Assembly (NCBI RefSeq): GCF_027622875.1 | Contig: NZ_JAPZVP010000003.1 | Coordinates: forward strand, 68,627-132,626 | From: Glycomyces luteolus | GTDB taxonomy: Bacteria; Actinomycetota; Actinomycetes; Mycobacteriales; Micromonosporaceae | DNA length: 64,000 nt | Reading direction: 5' to 3' | Program-made: the position numbers and the translations under genes | The notes under the pieces: model-generated | Database searches by the model: none | Seen by the model: the letters and a program-made list of their open reading frames with translations, nothing else | What the model was told of the DNA's origin: nothing | Shown here: positions 2,857-55,850 of the stretch, piece after piece | Numbering within the stretch: position 1 is the stretch's first letter | Layout of the letters: each line of letters begins with the position of its first letter

Positions 2857-3540
2857 TTGTCCGATACTGTGCGGCAAGACACGCTCGTCAGCCTACTAGG
2901 CGGCAAGCGCGGCGCATTCGACGCCACCGCCCCAGTGGTGGTGTTCATCCTCACCTGGATGCTGTCCGGGAACTCGATCGCTTGGGCCGCAGCGGCGGCG
3001 CTCCTCTCTGCGGGGGTGATCGCGATCGTCCGGCTGCGGCAGCGCCAGAAGCCACGGGCGGTGATCCTCGGCCTTCTGAGCGTCGCGGTCGCGTGCCTGA
3101 TCGTCCTCTACACCGGACGCGCGCAGGACATCCTCCTCCCCCGCATCGTCTCCAACGCCGCCAGCGCCCTCGTCTGGGCGGGATTCATCGTCTTCCGCCG
3201 CCCGCTCCTCGGCCTCATCGTGGGCGGCCTCCTCGGCCAGAAGACCCGGTGGCGGCGCGACCCGGACCTGCTGCGCGCCTATAGCGCGGCGTCCTGGGTC
3301 TGGGTCGCGATGTACACCCTCCGCGTGGCGATCCTGACCCCGTTCTGGAACAGCGACGAGGAACGCCTAGCGGTCGTCGCGGGCGGCGTGGCCCAGGTGG
3401 CGCTCTCGTGGCCGCTGCTCGTCCTCTGCCTCATCGTGAGCGGCTGGGTCATCCGCGTGATCCTCCCGAAGGACCACCCGGGCATCAGGCACCCCGTGGA
3501 TCCGGCGGGGGCCCAAGCACCGGAGAAGTCCGCGCCGTAA
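2857..3540 (+). CDS. DUF3159-type integral membrane protein
   Basis: The 227-residue product is almost entirely hydrophobic, with six or so predicted membrane helices and a short charged tail. Its pattern (LVSLLGGKRGAFDATAPVVVF near the N-terminus, then a RRPLLG loop and a W-rich fifth helix) matches the actinobacterial DUF3159 family of unknown role. I chose the TTG at 2857 as start because the strong purine run GAGGTGAGGG lies about 8 bp upstream and the first residues (SDTVRQDTLVSLLGG) fit the family. It is monocistronic and preceded by the iron-box-like palindrome. Function unknown; the family is usually described only as membrane-spanning. Confidence 0.7.
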   Translation: MSDTVRQDTLVSLLGGKRGAFDATAPVVVFILTWMLSGNSIAWAAAAALLSAGVIAIVRLRQRQKPRAVILGLLSVAVACLIVLYTGRAQDILLPRIVSNAASALVWAGFIVFRRPLLGLIVGGLLGQKTRWRRDPDLLRAYSAASWVWVAMYTLRVAILTPFWNSDEERLAVVAGGVAQVALSWPLLVLCLIVSGWVIRVILPKDHPGIRHPVDPAGAQAPEKSAP

Positions 3541-3643
3541 CGCGGTTCCCTTCCGCCCCAACCGAAACGAATTCCGGTCGGTTTCGCGACAGAGCGCGTT
3601 TCGCTGACCCGGGCTCGTTGTGTGCACCAATACACTCAACTAC

Positions 3644-4354
3644 ATGGAATCCCGTAGTCAGGTTCTGTGGAATCCTCTATTGAGCGATGAGGACCAGGAC
3701 GCACTGAAACCGGAGGCGCACGCGGTCTCGTACCCGCGGGGCGCGACGCTCATGAAGATCAACGAGCATTCGGATTACGTGGTCTATCTCCGCTCGGGCC
3801 ATGTGAAGTCCTGCATTCCGGGAACGATCTTCGGCATCCACGGACCGGGCTCGATGATCGGCGAGCTGGCTCCGCTCACCGGCGAGCCGAGGGCCGCCGA
3901 TCTGGTCGCGCTGACGCCCATCGACGTCCTGCACATCCCCGGCGACGTCTTCCTCAAGCTCCTCCAGTCGAATCCCCGGATTCACCTTGCGTTGACGAGA
4001 CGGCTCGCGAAGCGGGTCCGCGAGCTGGGCGAGGTCCAGGAGGAATCATTCCTGACGAGCGAACGGCGACTCGCCCGGGCGATGCTCCGGATCATCGACT
4101 CAGGCCTCGGCACGGAGGGAGCCGACGGCCTCACGATCGCCGGCTTCAGCCAGGCGGACCTGGCTGATCTGGCTCGCATCTCCCGGGAATCGGTCTCCGG
4201 GGTGCTCAAGCAGTTCAAAGCCAGGGGCACCGTCTCAACGGGTAGGGAGCGGTTCATCATCCACGACACGGCGACGATCGAGGCGCTGGCCATGCGCCGG
4301 GATCGTTCCGTCATCTACACCCGAAACGGACTGATCCGCGATGTCGAACTTTGA
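3644..4354 (+). CDS. Crp/Fnr-family regulator with cyclic-nucleotide-binding domain
   Basis: The 236-residue protein has an N-terminal cNMP-binding beta-barrel (about residues 10-115) that keeps the phosphate-binding cassette pattern: G73-E74 in SMIGELAPLTGE followed by R83-A84-A85. A long dimerisation helix follows (about 120-150), then a Crp-type winged helix-turn-helix (FSQADLADLARISRESVSGVLKQFK, about 170-193). The cassette suggests it binds a cyclic or small nucleotide rather than an iron-sulfur cluster; no Fnr cysteines are present. Start: ATG 3644, with TACACT 7 bp upstream as a leaderless -10; an in-frame GTG at 3620 would add 8 residues. Its 3' end overlaps the next gene by 14 bp, so it heads a three-gene cassette whose G+C is lower than the surroundings. 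Confidence 0.8.
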   Translation: MESRSQVLWNPLLSDEDQDALKPEAHAVSYPRGATLMKINEHSDYVVYLRSGHVKSCIPGTIFGIHGPGSMIGELAPLTGEPRAADLVALTPIDVLHIPGDVFLKLLQSNPRIHLALTRRLAKRVRELGEVQEESFLTSERRLARAMLRIIDSGLGTEGADGLTIAGFSQADLADLARISRESVSGVLKQFKARGTVSTGRERFIIHDTATIEALAMRRDRSVIYTRNGLIRDVEL

Positions 4355-4517
4355 CCTCAACACACTCGAGCTCCTGGTGGCGATTGTCGGCTCGGTCGCC
4401 GCCGTCGTGGGTGTGGTAATTCAGTTCAGGTCGAACAGGCCGGAGAAGCAGCAAGCGCGACAACGTCAGGCCCTCCCGGAACCGACCGACCATGCAGATG
4501 GGAAACCTTCGAAGTGA
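4341..4517 (+). CDS. 58-aa single-pass membrane peptide
   Basis: ATG at 4341 lies inside the last codons of the Crp-type gene (14-bp overlap) and the stop at 4515-4517 overlaps the GTG start of the next gene. The product starts MSNFDLNTLELL, then has one hydrophobic helix (VAIVGSVAAVVGVVIQF, about residues 13-29), then a basic, glutamine-rich cytoplasmic tail (SNRPEKQQARQRQ...). Interlocking overlaps on both sides imply translational coupling and a fixed ratio with its neighbours. No family is recognised. A membrane anchor or small effector/partner protein is the simplest reading. Confidence 0.65.
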   Translation: MSNFDLNTLELLVAIVGSVAAVVGVVIQFRSNRPEKQQARQRQALPEPTDHADGKPSK

Positions 4518-5026
4518 ACCGCGCTCGAAGCGAGGTCTTGAACGGTTTCGAGCTGATCGAAATGCTTCACCGCCATGTCCCATCGGACTTCAGTCCCGAC
4601 GACTTCGTGATCGCGGGAAGCGCCCGCCTCGGCGCCGGCGGCATCACGACCCCGCGCTTCACCGACCTCGACCTGCTAGCCCGGCCTGGCAGCAAGACCT
4701 GGCAGAGAGCTCTTGAACTCGCATTCGAGCATGCCTCTGAATACGAGAACGCACCGCTGAGGATCAGCACCTACACCGGGGCGAAAATCGCCCTCCTCTA
4801 TGGCGGTGCAATTGAAGTAAGCGAGACCTGGGTGCTCCCTGGAAGCGATACGGACGAGCTCCTGGACACGGCGGAGCAGATCGATGGACTGAAGTACCTG
4901 CCGCTCAGAGAGGTCGTCGCCTACAAGCTCATCATGAACCGGCGCAAGGACTTCACCGACTTGGCGGCGATCTGCGGCCGCCCGCAGCCCAGCGATGGAA
5001 GGTTCCCGATCACCAGCGAACTATAG
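4514..5026 (+). CDS. Nucleotidyltransferase-like protein (AbiEii/MNT-type fold)
   Basis: The 170-residue protein has the hallmark of the polymerase-beta NTase fold: G35-S36 followed by D51-L52-D53 (key residues GS...TDLDLL), with E101 in the strand IEVS as a possible third carboxylate. The C-terminal segment VVAYKLIMNRRKDFTDLAAI resembles the K-x-x-RxKD-x-x-D region of AbiEii-like and related standalone nucleotidyltransferases. It starts at GTG 4514, overlapping the preceding stop (GTGA). Such proteins modify tRNA or proteins in some toxin-antitoxin systems, but the family is broad and no activity is proven here. The combination with a Crp-type sensor and a membrane peptide is unusual. Confidence 0.65.
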   Translation: MNRARSEVLNGFELIEMLHRHVPSDFSPDDFVIAGSARLGAGGITTPRFTDLDLLARPGSKTWQRALELAFEHASEYENAPLRISTYTGAKIALLYGGAIEVSETWVLPGSDTDELLDTAEQIDGLKYLPLREVVAYKLIMNRRKDFTDLAAICGRPQPSDGRFPITSEL

Positions 5027-5176: not shown

Positions 5177-5857
5177 CTAGGCGATGAACTCGGTGAGCTT
5201 CGCCGTGAAGAGGTCCGGGAACTGGAGGTTCCAGATGTGCCCCGCGTCGGGGATGACGTCGAGCTTGGCGCCCGGGATGGTGGCGGCGAGTTCTGCGGCG
5301 GGTTTGAGGTTCTCTTTGTCCGTGGCGCCGCAGAGGACGAGGGTGGGGATCGCGAGGTCGGCGAGGCGGGGGCGGAGGTCGAGGGCGCCGAGTTCGGTGA
5401 GGCCGGTGATGAAGGCCTGCTTGCCGGCGGTGCGGAGGTCGGCTTTGGCCTGGGGCTTGTGTTCGGGGCGGCCTCCGGCGTACATGCCTGACATGAGGGC
5501 GGTGATCATGCCGGTCGGCATGAGGCGCATGAGGTTGCGTTGGAGGCCGACGCCGGGCGCGTGGGCGGCGCCGCCGGAGAGGACGAGGGTCGCGACCCGG
5601 GAGGGGTCGTCGAGGGCCGCGAGCATGGCGACGGTGGCGCCGACGGAGATGCCCACGAGGTGGACCGGTTCGGGTTCGGCGGCGATGAGGTCGGCGACCG
5701 CGAAGGCCGCGGGTTCGAGGCCGAAGGGGCCGGGCGCGTCGCCGTGGCCCGGGAGGTCGGGGGCGAGCACCTTATAGCGCTCGCCGAGCGCCGCGACCTG
5801 GGGCTGCCAGGCGCGGGCGCTCGAACCGAGGGCGTGGACGAAGACGATCGTGGACAT
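5177..5857 (-). CDS. Alpha/beta-fold hydrolase
   Basis: This 226-residue protein is a small single-domain alpha/beta hydrolase. The oxyanion strand is VFVHALGSSARAW near the N-terminus, the nucleophile elbow is G69-I70-S71-V72-G73, an acidic residue lies in the LCGATDKENL segment, and H207 in DAGHIWNLQ completes the triad. The cap region is short. Relatives include 3-oxoadipate enol-lactonase-like and lipase-like enzymes, but the substrate cannot be read from the sequence. There is no signal peptide, so it is cytoplasmic. It lies 59 bp downstream of the GH42 gene start-side neighbour on the same strand and may be transcribed separately. Confidence 0.8.
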   Translation of the reverse strand: MSTIVFVHALGSSARAWQPQVAALGERYKVLAPDLPGHGDAPGPFGLEPAAFAVADLIAAEPEPVHLVGISVGATVAMLAALDDPSRVATLVLSGGAAHAPGVGLQRNLMRLMPTGMITALMSGMYAGGRPEHKPQAKADLRTAGKQAFITGLTELGALDLRPRLADLAIPTLVLCGATDKENLKPAAELAATIPGAKLDVIPDAGHIWNLQFPDLFTAKLTEFIA

Positions 5858-5916: not shown

Positions 5917-7908
5917 TCAGACTTCGCGAATCACCGCGCACTCGCCGGGTTTGAGGGAGAGCATCGGGGCCCAGGCCTTGCCGGTGAGGAGGTTGCGACC
6001 CGCGGCGGGGACCTTGGCGGGGACCTTGCCGTGGTTGATCGCGAAGACGTAGCTGCGGCCGTCCTCATGGGAGCGGCGGACCAGTTCGAGCTCGGCCGGG
6101 GCTCCCGGGAAGTCGGGCGCGACGCCGATGCGGTCGAAGAACGGGTCGAGCTCCGTGAGCCGCGTGGCGAGGTACCAGACGTCGCCCCGGCCGAGCTTGC
6201 GGCGGAAGACGGCCCCGGTCTCCGGGTAGCCCTTGAAGGAGGCGACCGTCTCGGCGTCCGTCGCGTGGGCGACCTCCGACCAGGTCGCACCCGCCCAGCC
6301 GTTGTCCAGGGCCGCGGTCTCGCCTTCCCAGAGCGGGAGGAACTCCTCGATGCGCACGCCCACAAGGTCCCCCAGCCCTCCGGGGAGGCCGGGGAGGACG
6401 CGGTCATTGCCGTCCACAATGCCCGAGTACGGGCCGACGACGAGGGTGCCGCCGCCTTCGACGTAGGCGCGGAGGTTCGCGTCGTCCTCGAGGAGGTACA
6501 GGTGCGGCGCGAAGACGTACTCGTAGCCGCTGAGGTCCCATCCGGGGTTCGCGAGGTCGGTGGCGACGCCGCGCCGCCAGAGCGATGCGTGCCAGCGCCG
6601 CAGCTCCGGGTAGGTGTCCATGTCGGAGGACGGCTGCCCGGGGGTCTTCGCGGCCCAGACCGAGTTGAAGTCGAGGAGGATCGCCGTCCGTGCGTCGACG
6701 GTGGAGCCCTTGACTTCGGCGAGGTCCCCCAGCCAGGCGCCGAGCTGCTTGATCTCGCGGAAGACCCTGGAGTCGGCGCCGCCGTGCGGCACCATCGCCG
6801 AGTGGTAGCGCTCGGCGCCGGAGTGGGAGGCCCGCCATTGGAAGAACATGGCGCCTTCGGAGCCGCGGGCGACGTAGGAGAGCGAGTGGCGCATCAGCTC
6901 GCCCGGTTGCTTGGGGAAGCCGCCGCGGCGCCAGGCCGAGGAGTTCGCTGCCTGCTCCATAAGGAGCCAGGGGCCGCCCGCGGCGAGGCCGCGGGAGGCG
7001 TCGGCGCCGAAGGCGGCCTGGATCGACCAGGGAATGCCGTCGACCTGTTCGGGGATGAGGTAGTGGTCGGTGGCGACGAGCCGGTTCGGGCCGGTCACGT
7101 GCTCGCCCCAGCGGTGGTAGTCGAGGTCGCTGAAGTTGCCGGTGACCATGAGGTTCGTGGTGATCGGCTTGTCGGGGCTGTGCTCGGCGATCGCGTCGGC
7201 CTCGGAGCGGAAGAGTTTCAGGAGCGCGTCGGAGCAGAACCGCTGCCAGTCGAGGACGAGGGCGGGGTTCGGGGTCTCGGCGCAGACGCGCGGGGGCAGC
7301 ACCTGCGACCAGTCGCTGTAGGTCTGGGACCAGAAGGTGGTGCCCCAGGCGCGGTTGAGGCCGTCGAGGGCGCCGTGGCGCTCCCGGAGCCAGTCGCGGA
7401 ACGCGGCGGCGGAGGCGTCGCAGAAGCAGGCCCGGTAGTACTCGTTGCCGACGTGCCACATGGCGAGCGCGGGGTGGTCCGCGTAGCGTTCGGCGAGCTT
7501 CGAGGCCATCTCGACGACGGCGGCCTGGTAGACCGGGGAGTTCGGGCAGTATTCGGCGCGGGCCCCGGAGTTCAGGGTGATGCCTTCGGCGTTGACCGGG
7601 AGGGTCTCGGGGTGGGCCTGCGAGAACCACGGCGGCGGCGACGCGGTCGAGGTGGCCAGGTCGGCCTTGATCCCGCCCGCCGCGAGGAGGTCCATGATGG
7701 CGTCGAGCCGCCCGAAATCCCACTCCCCCGGGCCGGGGTTGATGCTCGCCCAGGAGAAGACGTTGACGGTGGCGACATTGACGCCGGCCTCCTGCATGAG
7801 GCGGACGTCCTCGTCCCAGACCTCGCGTGGCCACTGCTCGGGGTTGTAGTCACCGCCGAAGGCGAGGCCTTCGACGGTGGGGATGATGTCGGTGTTCGGA
7901 TGTGCCAT
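5917..7908 (-). CDS. GH42 beta-galactosidase
   Basis: The 663-residue protein opens with the GH42 TIM barrel (FGGDYNPEQWP at about residues 18-27; SWASINPGPGEWDF at 52-65). The acid/base glutamate is E156 in WHVGNEYY, and the nucleophile is the glutamate of LLMEQAANSSAW near residue 316. After the barrel come the trimerisation domain and a small C-terminal beta domain. The length is normal for the family. It hydrolyses terminal beta-galactosides such as galacto-oligosaccharides or plant galactan fragments. No signal peptide is present, so it acts in the cytoplasm on imported sugar. A LacI-type palindrome lies about 50 bp upstream (7959-7971), suggesting sugar-responsive repression; no LacI gene is in the window. 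Confidence 0.92.
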   Translation of the reverse strand: MAHPNTDIIPTVEGLAFGGDYNPEQWPREVWDEDVRLMQEAGVNVATVNVFSWASINPGPGEWDFGRLDAIMDLLAAGGIKADLATSTASPPPWFSQAHPETLPVNAEGITLNSGARAEYCPNSPVYQAAVVEMASKLAERYADHPALAMWHVGNEYYRACFCDASAAAFRDWLRERHGALDGLNRAWGTTFWSQTYSDWSQVLPPRVCAETPNPALVLDWQRFCSDALLKLFRSEADAIAEHSPDKPITTNLMVTGNFSDLDYHRWGEHVTGPNRLVATDHYLIPEQVDGIPWSIQAAFGADASRGLAAGGPWLLMEQAANSSAWRRGGFPKQPGELMRHSLSYVARGSEGAMFFQWRASHSGAERYHSAMVPHGGADSRVFREIKQLGAWLGDLAEVKGSTVDARTAILLDFNSVWAAKTPGQPSSDMDTYPELRRWHASLWRRGVATDLANPGWDLSGYEYVFAPHLYLLEDDANLRAYVEGGGTLVVGPYSGIVDGNDRVLPGLPGGLGDLVGVRIEEFLPLWEGETAALDNGWAGATWSEVAHATDAETVASFKGYPETGAVFRRKLGRGDVWYLATRLTELDPFFDRIGVAPDFPGAPAELELVRRSHEDGRSYVFAINHGKVPAKVPAAGRNLLTGKAWAPMLSLKPGECAVIREV

Positions 7909-54692: not shown

Positions 54693-55850
54693 CTAGGACA
54701 GCCCGGCGGTCTTCGCGCGCCGCACGGCTTCGGGCAGGGCCCCGATGAGCGCGTCGGTCTCGGCCTTGGTGGTGGGCCAGCCGAGCGTGAAGCGCAGGGA
54801 GGAGCGGGCGTCGTCGGCGTCGGTGCCCATGGCGAGGAGGACGTGCGAGGGCTGCGCGATCCCGGCCGAGCAGGCGGAGCCTGTGGCGCATTCGACACCG
54901 GCGGCGTCGAGGAGCATGAGGAGGGCGTCGCCTTCGCAGCCGGGGAACGAGAAGTGGGCGTTGCCGGGCAGGCGCGATTCGGGGTCGCCGTTGTAGATCG
55001 CCTCGGGGACGATCGCGCGGATGCGGGCGACGAGGTCGTCGCGCAGGAGCACCAGCCGCTGGGACTCGGTCTCCTGCGTGCGGACGGCGTGAGCGACCGC
55101 TTCGGCGAGTGCGGCGATGCCGGGCACGTCGAGGGTGCCGGAGCGGATCTCGCGTTCCTGGCCGCCGCCGTGGAGGAGCGGGACGGCCTTCACGTCGCGG
55201 CGCAGGATGAGCGCGCCGGTGCCGGTGGGTCCGCCGAGCTTGTGGCCGGAGAGGGCGAGGGAGGCGGCGCCGGAGGCGGCGAAGTCGACGGGGACGTGGC
55301 CGACGGCCTGGATGGCGTCGGTGTGCACGGGGATGCCGTGGGCGGCGGCGAGTTCGGCGATCTCGGGGATGGGTTGGAGGGTGCCGACCTCGTTGTTCGC
55401 CCACATGCAGGTGAGCAGGGTGATCTCGGCGCCGCGCTCGTCGAGGATTTCGGCGAGGGCGCCGGTGTCGACGCGGCCGAGCTTGTCGACGGGGAGCTCG
55501 GTGACGTCGGCCTTCTCGTGGTCGCCGAGCCAGGCGACGGCGTCGGCGACGGCGTGGTGCTCGATCGCGGTGGTGACCACGCGGTTGCGGTGCTCGGTGC
55601 GGCGGTGCCAGTGGACGCCTTTGACGGCGAGGTTGTCGGCCTCGGTGCCGGAGCCGGTGAAGATGACCTCGCCGGGTTTGGCGCCCAGGGCTTCGGCGAT
55701 GCGCTCGCGGGCCTCCTCGACCGTGCGGCGGGCGGCGCGCCCGGAACCGTGGAGGGAGGAGGCGTTGCCGAGGGCGCGGGCGGTGCGCACGTAGGCGTCG
55801 AGCGCCTGGGGGAGCATCGGCGTGGTCGCGGCGTGATCGAGATAGGCCAT
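54693..55850 (-). CDS. Cysteine desulfurase (NifS/IscS-like)
   Basis: The 385-residue PLP enzyme starts [11 protein letters not shown] and has the PLP-binding loop [15 protein letters not shown] (Schiff-base lysine) and the catalytic cysteine in ATGSACSAG. It removes sulfur from cysteine for tRNA thiolation by the adjacent mnmA and possibly for iron-sulfur clusters. Start ATG 55850 with TAGAAT nine bases upstream (short leader). Normal length. Confidence 0.95.

Follow-up and report, generated by a model that had tools for sequence, protein, structure and literature searches.

What kind of system is formed when a Crp-type regulator, a tiny membrane peptide and a nucleotidyltransferase (NTase) are encoded by overlapping genes? 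We addressed this question for a cassette of Glycomyces luteolus located in a 64,000-nucleotide stretch of contig NZ_JAPZVP010000003.1 (positions 68,627 to 132,626; hereafter, the window). A preliminary description of this DNA had reported three interlocking open reading frames (ORFs), and we confirmed both the ORFs and their 14-bp and GTGA overlaps. The predicted Crp-type, membrane-peptide and NTase genes are shown by their arrangement to be one overlapping unit:

3644..4354, forward strand: Crp/Fnr-type regulator gene, 236 amino acids (aa) from the ATG at 3644, or 244 aa from an in-frame GTG at 3620
4341..4517, forward strand: small membrane-peptide ORF, 58 aa, overlapping the Crp gene by 14 bp
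4514..5026, forward strand: minimal NTase gene, 170 aa, with its GTG start inside the GTGA overlap

We tentatively read this unit as a polymorphic, self-regulated conflict cassette (toxin-antitoxin-like or abortive-defense-like) in which an NTase effector would be gated by the Crp protein, and assign this reading a probability of roughly 0.45.

The three genes recur together. NTase matches were detected in 38 of 200 genomes of the family, the window's included, and up to 20 kb around each match was inspected (the neighbor table omits L101 to L104, which are weak NTase matches). At 25 of the 38 loci (18 in Glycomyces, 7 in others), the gene immediately upstream of the NTase, with or without the peptide between them, encoded a same-family Crp, and a small membrane ORF stood between Crp and NTase at 21; the association is therefore not due to chance, and the view that the cassette is kept and moved as a unit is supported. 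Wider searches matched 12 of 394 genomes of the class and 20 of 396 genomes of the phylum, both tallies being lower bounds because at most nine candidates per genome were scored. Among nine further strong loci from the class search, one had a Crp gene and five a larger membrane protein, c19; a same-family Crp was found at none of the 10 loci inspected from the phylum search. In total, c19 (241 to 319 aa) lies directly upstream of the NTase, without Crp, at nine loci (L033, L086, L087, L091, L117, L118, L119, L121 and L122; three from the family, five from the class search, and L033), and the single member scanned (L119) gave no Pfam match at E ≤ 0.01. Crp is thus a partner of one NTase branch, the NTase is more widespread than the cassette, and a membrane protein often accompanies it. 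The c19-NTase pair can be regarded as an alternative version of the module with two genes. In a separate NTase branch (L078, L088, L089, L090, L092, L124 and L125), an FtsK/Tra-like ATPase (c20) accompanied the gene at 7 of 7 loci and a membrane protein (c27) at 4 of 7, in surroundings that we take to resemble an actinomycete integrative conjugative element; L124 and L125 additionally neighbor a DUF3307 protein and a NUDIX-RapZ_C protein. Our literature searches returned no paper describing the Crp-peptide-NTase combination, an absence that rests on these searches only.

Within Glycomyces, the cassette occupies a constant place in the chromosome, which in the window is delimited as follows:

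2857..3540, forward strand: DUF3159 membrane protein gene, left border of the site (PF11361, E = 1.2e-48)
5917..7908, reverse strand: beta-galactosidase gene, right border of the site (cluster c8)
5177-5857: alpha/beta-hydrolase gene between the cassette and the right border (PF12697)

Judged by its sequence, the c8 border gene is presumably of GH42 type. Among 20 Glycomyces NTase loci, the flanking genes TY-Chap (c3), DUF3159 and GH42 were present at 20, 19 and 18, respectively, in gene calls from a simple script that missed some genes. Crp and NTase together were found at this site in 18 of 22 Glycomyces genomes, and a similar small ORF occupied the same place in 16 of these 18 cassettes. 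Crp is absent from L065, which has the NTase with PycTM; from L066, which has a frameshifted NTase and no peptide; from L139 (genome G132), which has PycTM, no cassette match and, as in other loci, CDP-alcohol transferase-like and VTT-like genes downstream (read by eye); and from L140 (genome G160), where the site is empty and about 90 bp separate DUF3159 from GH42. Moreover, the cassette is inverted relative to its flanks in L069 and L073, and L074 carries a Crp-peptide pair followed by a second Crp-NTase. Judged by this comparison, the element is a polymorphic cassette at a fixed chromosomal site and not a stray one. Its low G+C content had been taken as a sign of transfer. The difference itself is real, both in the window (62.8% in 3644-5026 versus 70.1% overall) and in all 18 Glycomyces loci with Crp, where the Crp-to-NTase segment falls below the flanking genes (mean, 64.7% versus 70.6%); however, a stray transfer into this strain does not follow, because the cassette keeps to a single site throughout the genus and it is the alleles that were exchanged there.

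The exchange of alleles is apparent from the divergence of the cassette relative to its surroundings. Mean pairwise identities of the flanking proteins were 90% (TY-Chap), 79% (DUF3159) and 74% (GH42), and the corresponding values in the cassette were 45% for Crp, 46% for the NTase and 28.5% for the peptide, which varies most; for instance, L071 and the window are 99, 89 and 82% identical in the flanks versus 41% in Crp and 40% in the NTase. Pairwise distances correlated strongly among the flanks (r = 0.84 to 0.91) and poorly between the flanks and either the NTase (r = 0.16 to 0.20; Mantel P = 0.07 to 0.11) or the peptide (r = 0.10 to 0.25; P = 0.02 to 0.14), with Crp retaining a weaker but real vertical signal (r = 0.37 to 0.45; P ≤ 0.0004). 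Within the cassette, Crp correlated with the NTase (r = 0.66) and the peptide (r = 0.64), both at P = 0.0002, and the peptide with the NTase (r = 0.41; P = 0.002). Maximum-likelihood trees, built from the 14 of 20 loci in which all genes are present and leaving out the first Crp of L074, placed L071, L072 and L074 differently by flanks than by Crp and NTase, and approximately unbiased (AU) tests, with groups named only after the trees had been seen, rejected the exchanged groupings in both directions. More specifically, the Crp and NTase trees agree strongly on L070 as the new neighbor of L074; both place L072 near L067 and L068 (the NTase strongly, Crp weakly); and both remove L071 from the window's group, its new position differing between the two trees. 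Long branches affect some NTase placements, that of L064 above all. At the sequence level, these trees and distances show that cassette versions replaced one another at the fixed site.

The promoter region of the cassette carries three elements:

3622..3635, forward strand: operator-like GTG-N8-CAC, with a wider imperfect inverted repeat, GTTGTGTGCACCAATACACTCAAC, at 3617-3640
3631..3636, forward strand: -10-like TACACT, its first T followed by the start codon 13 nt on
3577..3590: palindrome GTCG-N6-CGAC, about 55 to 70 bp before the Crp start

Cassette Crp genes are preceded by TTGTGTG-N6-TACACTCAA or a variant of it. Of 26 Crp genes scored, 18 had an exact GTG-N8-CAC at the expected place, 3 had it with one mismatch and 5 with two or three (one of the latter, L062, would match exactly were its second ATG the start), compared with 0.15% of background positions passing the same test; the site was not found before a 27th Crp gene, that of L120. 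The extended form GTG-N8-CACT-Y-A precedes 16 of 27 Crp genes and occurs at only 2 other places in 962 kb, both being the same operators on the opposite strand, and the looser GTG-N8-CACT-Y precedes 18 of 27 and occurs at 17 other places. In the window genome, a 19-base operator pattern had 1 copy with zero mismatches and 5 with up to two, versus 2 for the reversed control. At the four Glycomyces sites lacking Crp, the regions inspected contained neither GTG-N8-CAC nor TACACT. Counted from its first T, the -10-like element lay 13 nt before the start codon in 21 of 26 genes, as scored by a script that used whichever in-frame start came first downstream of the element and whose patterns included by-eye variants for L079, L083, L084 and L094, with L068 unmatched. 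This spacing implies that the cassette transcript is leaderless, with a start position predicted accordingly, and the motif coordinates show GTG-N8-CAC overlapping the -10-like element of this apparently leaderless promoter. Thus, the conservation of GTG-N8-CAC and its near-single occurrence point to Crp as a dedicated autoregulator that would bind this site. We also considered GTCG-N6-CGAC as the Crp operator. By eye, similar palindromes can be seen before most Crp genes of Glycomyces cassettes, also where the cassette is inverted; however, because they lie near the Crp-less sites L065, L066 and L139 as well (none was seen at the empty site L140), this palindrome is probably not the Crp operator. 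The lone PycTM gene of L139 has a leaderless-looking start of its own at 5979-5994 (TAGGCT, with ATG 13 nt on) and no Crp operator.

As had been proposed, the regulator is of the cyclic nucleoside monophosphate (cNMP)-binding type with a phosphate cassette. Both domains exceeded the cutoff (PF00027, E = 4.4e-17, 62.3 bits; HTH_Crp_2 PF13545, E = 4.7e-12, 46.1 bits), so that the protein belongs to the Crp/Fnr family by its cNMP-binding domain and Crp helix-turn-helix, and the GE...R motif is present; across 26 cassette Crp proteins, its G and R never vary and its E hardly does. It shares with GlxR-type Crp/Fnr regulators the domain order, the GE...R cassette and the GTG-N8-CAC half-site spacing, which is the spacing rule of Crp/Fnr regulators, but differs from them in apparently having one target and in the pair of residues at its base-reading slot: the window has L-G where a paralogue from its own genome that we take to be GlxR-like, and through which the slot was aligned, has T-N. 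Three further Crp-family genes of this genome are more distant. According to PMC11224242, the Gly, Glu and Arg of the phosphate cassette touch ribose and phosphate in PycTIR and CRP, and base recognition falls to the residue at the position of CRP S128, with Ser or Thr for cAMP, Asn for cUMP and Glu for cGMP. The second position of this slot is occupied by S, D, E, T or N in other alleles of the cassette Crp, in an alignment with a one-residue indel there in some rows. The Crp ligand is likely something other than cAMP, or there is likely none.

The 58-aa peptide has a single hydrophobic stretch, consistent with a single pass through the membrane, and a basic C-terminal tail. For the NTase, an AbiEii-like nature had been proposed together with the motif GS-x14-D-x-D. 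The motif is present as GS-x14-DLD, with G35, S36, D51 and D53 invariant in 27 aligned members, and is accompanied by IEV, K138 and R-x-KD (alignment A1 omits L001 [the window], L010 [frameshifted], L031 and L032 [which match as L004], L025, L026 and L029). Kinship with the AbiEii type is distant: neither Pfam nor NCBIfam gave a match for the window NTase at E ≤ 1, none of the 27 members matched the AbiEii family PF08843 at E ≤ 0.1, and profile comparison gave a distant match only. In PADLOC at E ≤ 0.1, the 27 members matched PDC-M02B once (E = 0.0079), AbiEi once (the window's only match, sub-significant at E = 0.042) and cGAS/DncV-like nucleotidyltransferase (CD-NTase) models never. DUF6036 (PF19502) was matched by 2 of 27 members (best E = 0.0095), and its profile comparison aligned only 33 C-terminal columns (E = 3e-4, probability 40%). 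Searching solved structures with a sequence profile gave nothing meaningful for the NTase. In the Foldseek comparison of a low-confidence predicted fold, the best match was MenT1 and the nearest folds were enzymes transferring nucleotides to tRNA or drugs, with the CD-NTases CdnE/CdnD weak and further down the list (E of about 0.02). By its motifs, weak profile match and low-confidence fold, the NTase looks like a distant AbiEii/MenT-type enzyme, which agrees with the proposed relationship. Named relatives of the locus are two in Glycomyces algeriensis (60% identity) and one in Nonomuraea harbinensis (41%); the two Glycomyces algeriensis regions (L031 and L032) lie on separate scaffolds with identical match coordinates and represent either a real duplication or an assembly artifact.

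Among known systems, AbiE/MenAT resembles the cassette in the GS...DxD, conserved Lys and Asp motifs and in a regulator that comes first in the operon and has a site at its own promoter, and MenT1 is the best match of the low-confidence fold; AbiEi is reported to autoregulate (PMC7725324). In contrast, the cassette NTase is not recognized by PF08843 and is smaller than MenT3 (170 versus about 290 residues), its regulator is Crp-type with a cNMP domain and no AbiEi/COG5340-type or MenA gene is present, and there is an extra membrane peptide. Under the conflict-cassette reading, Crp would bind its single site and block the promoter as a dedicated autoregulator; a nucleotide-like ligand, or the loss of a ligand, during phage attack or rivalry between elements would change the shape of Crp and release the operon; and the NTase, as effector, would move a nucleotide onto RNA (a tRNA end, MenT-like) or protein, with the membrane peptide tethering, restraining or assisting it at the membrane. 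The rapid change of alleles would then be the trace of an arms race. If so, Crp proteins with a cNMP pocket would add a class of regulator to NTase conflict modules, an actinobacterial NTase family without Pfam or NCBIfam match would be tied to membrane partners, and the compact locus would allow allele exchange to be followed across a genus and would make it possible to test directly if Crp-type receptors that do not belong to the cAMP world sense different nucleotides in phage attack. More speculative, and rather unlikely as a whole, is a new immunity class at a fixed locus, with dedicated Crp receptors whose alleles, differing in base-reading residues, may sense different nucleotide ligands, a leaderless operon, a membrane-linked NTase effector, alleles exchanged between species, and PycTM joining or replacing parts.

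The cassette had initially been compared with signaling systems, and an unlikely alternative is that the NTase makes a nucleotide signal read by the Crp cNMP domain, with the peptide or PycTM as effector. The invariant or nearly invariant GE...R contacts in the 26 Crp proteins, as in PycTIR and CRP (PMC11224242), and the differences in the base-reading slot between alleles speak for it, as does PycTM (PF18967), which had 21 matches in the 22 Glycomyces genomes, 9 of them at the cassette site (in 9 of 22 genomes) and 7 beside a Crp cassette; any copies inherited together are not independent. PycTM thereby links the site, by association only, to nucleotide-gated immunity, and the proposed signaling or defense logic gains from its presence, although 12 of the 21 matches lie off-site and the window genome has none. 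Like Pycsar (pyrimidine cyclase system for antiphage resistance; PycC with PycTM or PycTIR), the cassette combines a cNMP-binding domain with a membrane partner. Unlike Pycsar, it fuses that domain to a DNA-binding domain, with its own operator-like site, and its enzyme is a minimal NTase: no cyclase domain was found in the three proteins (other genes of the site were scanned in part), the only PycC match being that of the Crp cNMP domain to the corresponding portion of the model, and PycTIR models match only this domain as well. CBASS (cyclic-oligonucleotide-based antiphage signaling system) had been named as a model, since there too an NTase gene lies beside possible effectors. We rejected CBASS membership, given that no CD-NTase model matched, the NTases are 140 to 170 aa long, and no Cap partner occurs among the cassette proteins; CdnE/CdnD did appear as weak Foldseek hits. 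The nearest folds transfer nucleotides to tRNA or drugs, and a same-family Crp is missing near most relatives of the NTase in other genera, which also counts against signaling.

We judge it similarly improbable that the membrane protein is a toxin and the NTase an antitoxin modifying it (MntA/HepT-like), with Crp only timing expression. The usual upstream partner of the NTase is indeed a membrane protein, whether peptide or c19, and retention of the NTase without the peptide in L072, L079 and L120 would fit a harmless antitoxin; however, L074 keeps a Crp-peptide pair whose matching type of NTase is missing (another NTase lies close by), and the peptide is the most variable protein of the three. 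A minimal NTase within a unit of two or three genes recalls HEPN/MNT (HepT-MntA), but no HEPN partner matched among the window's cassette proteins. Least probable to us is an ordinary physiological regulator operon with a metabolic NTase, diverging fast for lack of constraint. Consistent with such an operon, most Glycomyces genomes carry the cassette at a single core site flanked by housekeeping-looking genes, and it was not found on plasmids or phages (queries with the window NTase and L023 returned no close relatives). Neutral drift does not account for repeated replacement as a unit, one site that is empty and another that is broken, copies in tandem or inverted, the occurrence of PycTM at this site or the kept operator spacing.

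A surrounding defense island had also been envisaged, but the neighbors read as core genes. PADLOC, run on 51 of 63 called window genes, matched 19 families at E ≤ 1e-5, several being the Crp cNMP domain, and we rejected such an island; the SspA/DndA match is probably a gene reading as a cysteine desulfurase at 54693-55850. Viral contigs queried with the window NTase, L023 and L011 yielded no close relatives. A distant NTase member, L023:1444-1917, matches phrog_12854 (E = 4.1e-6), and by this match phage-encoded NTase relatives may exist.
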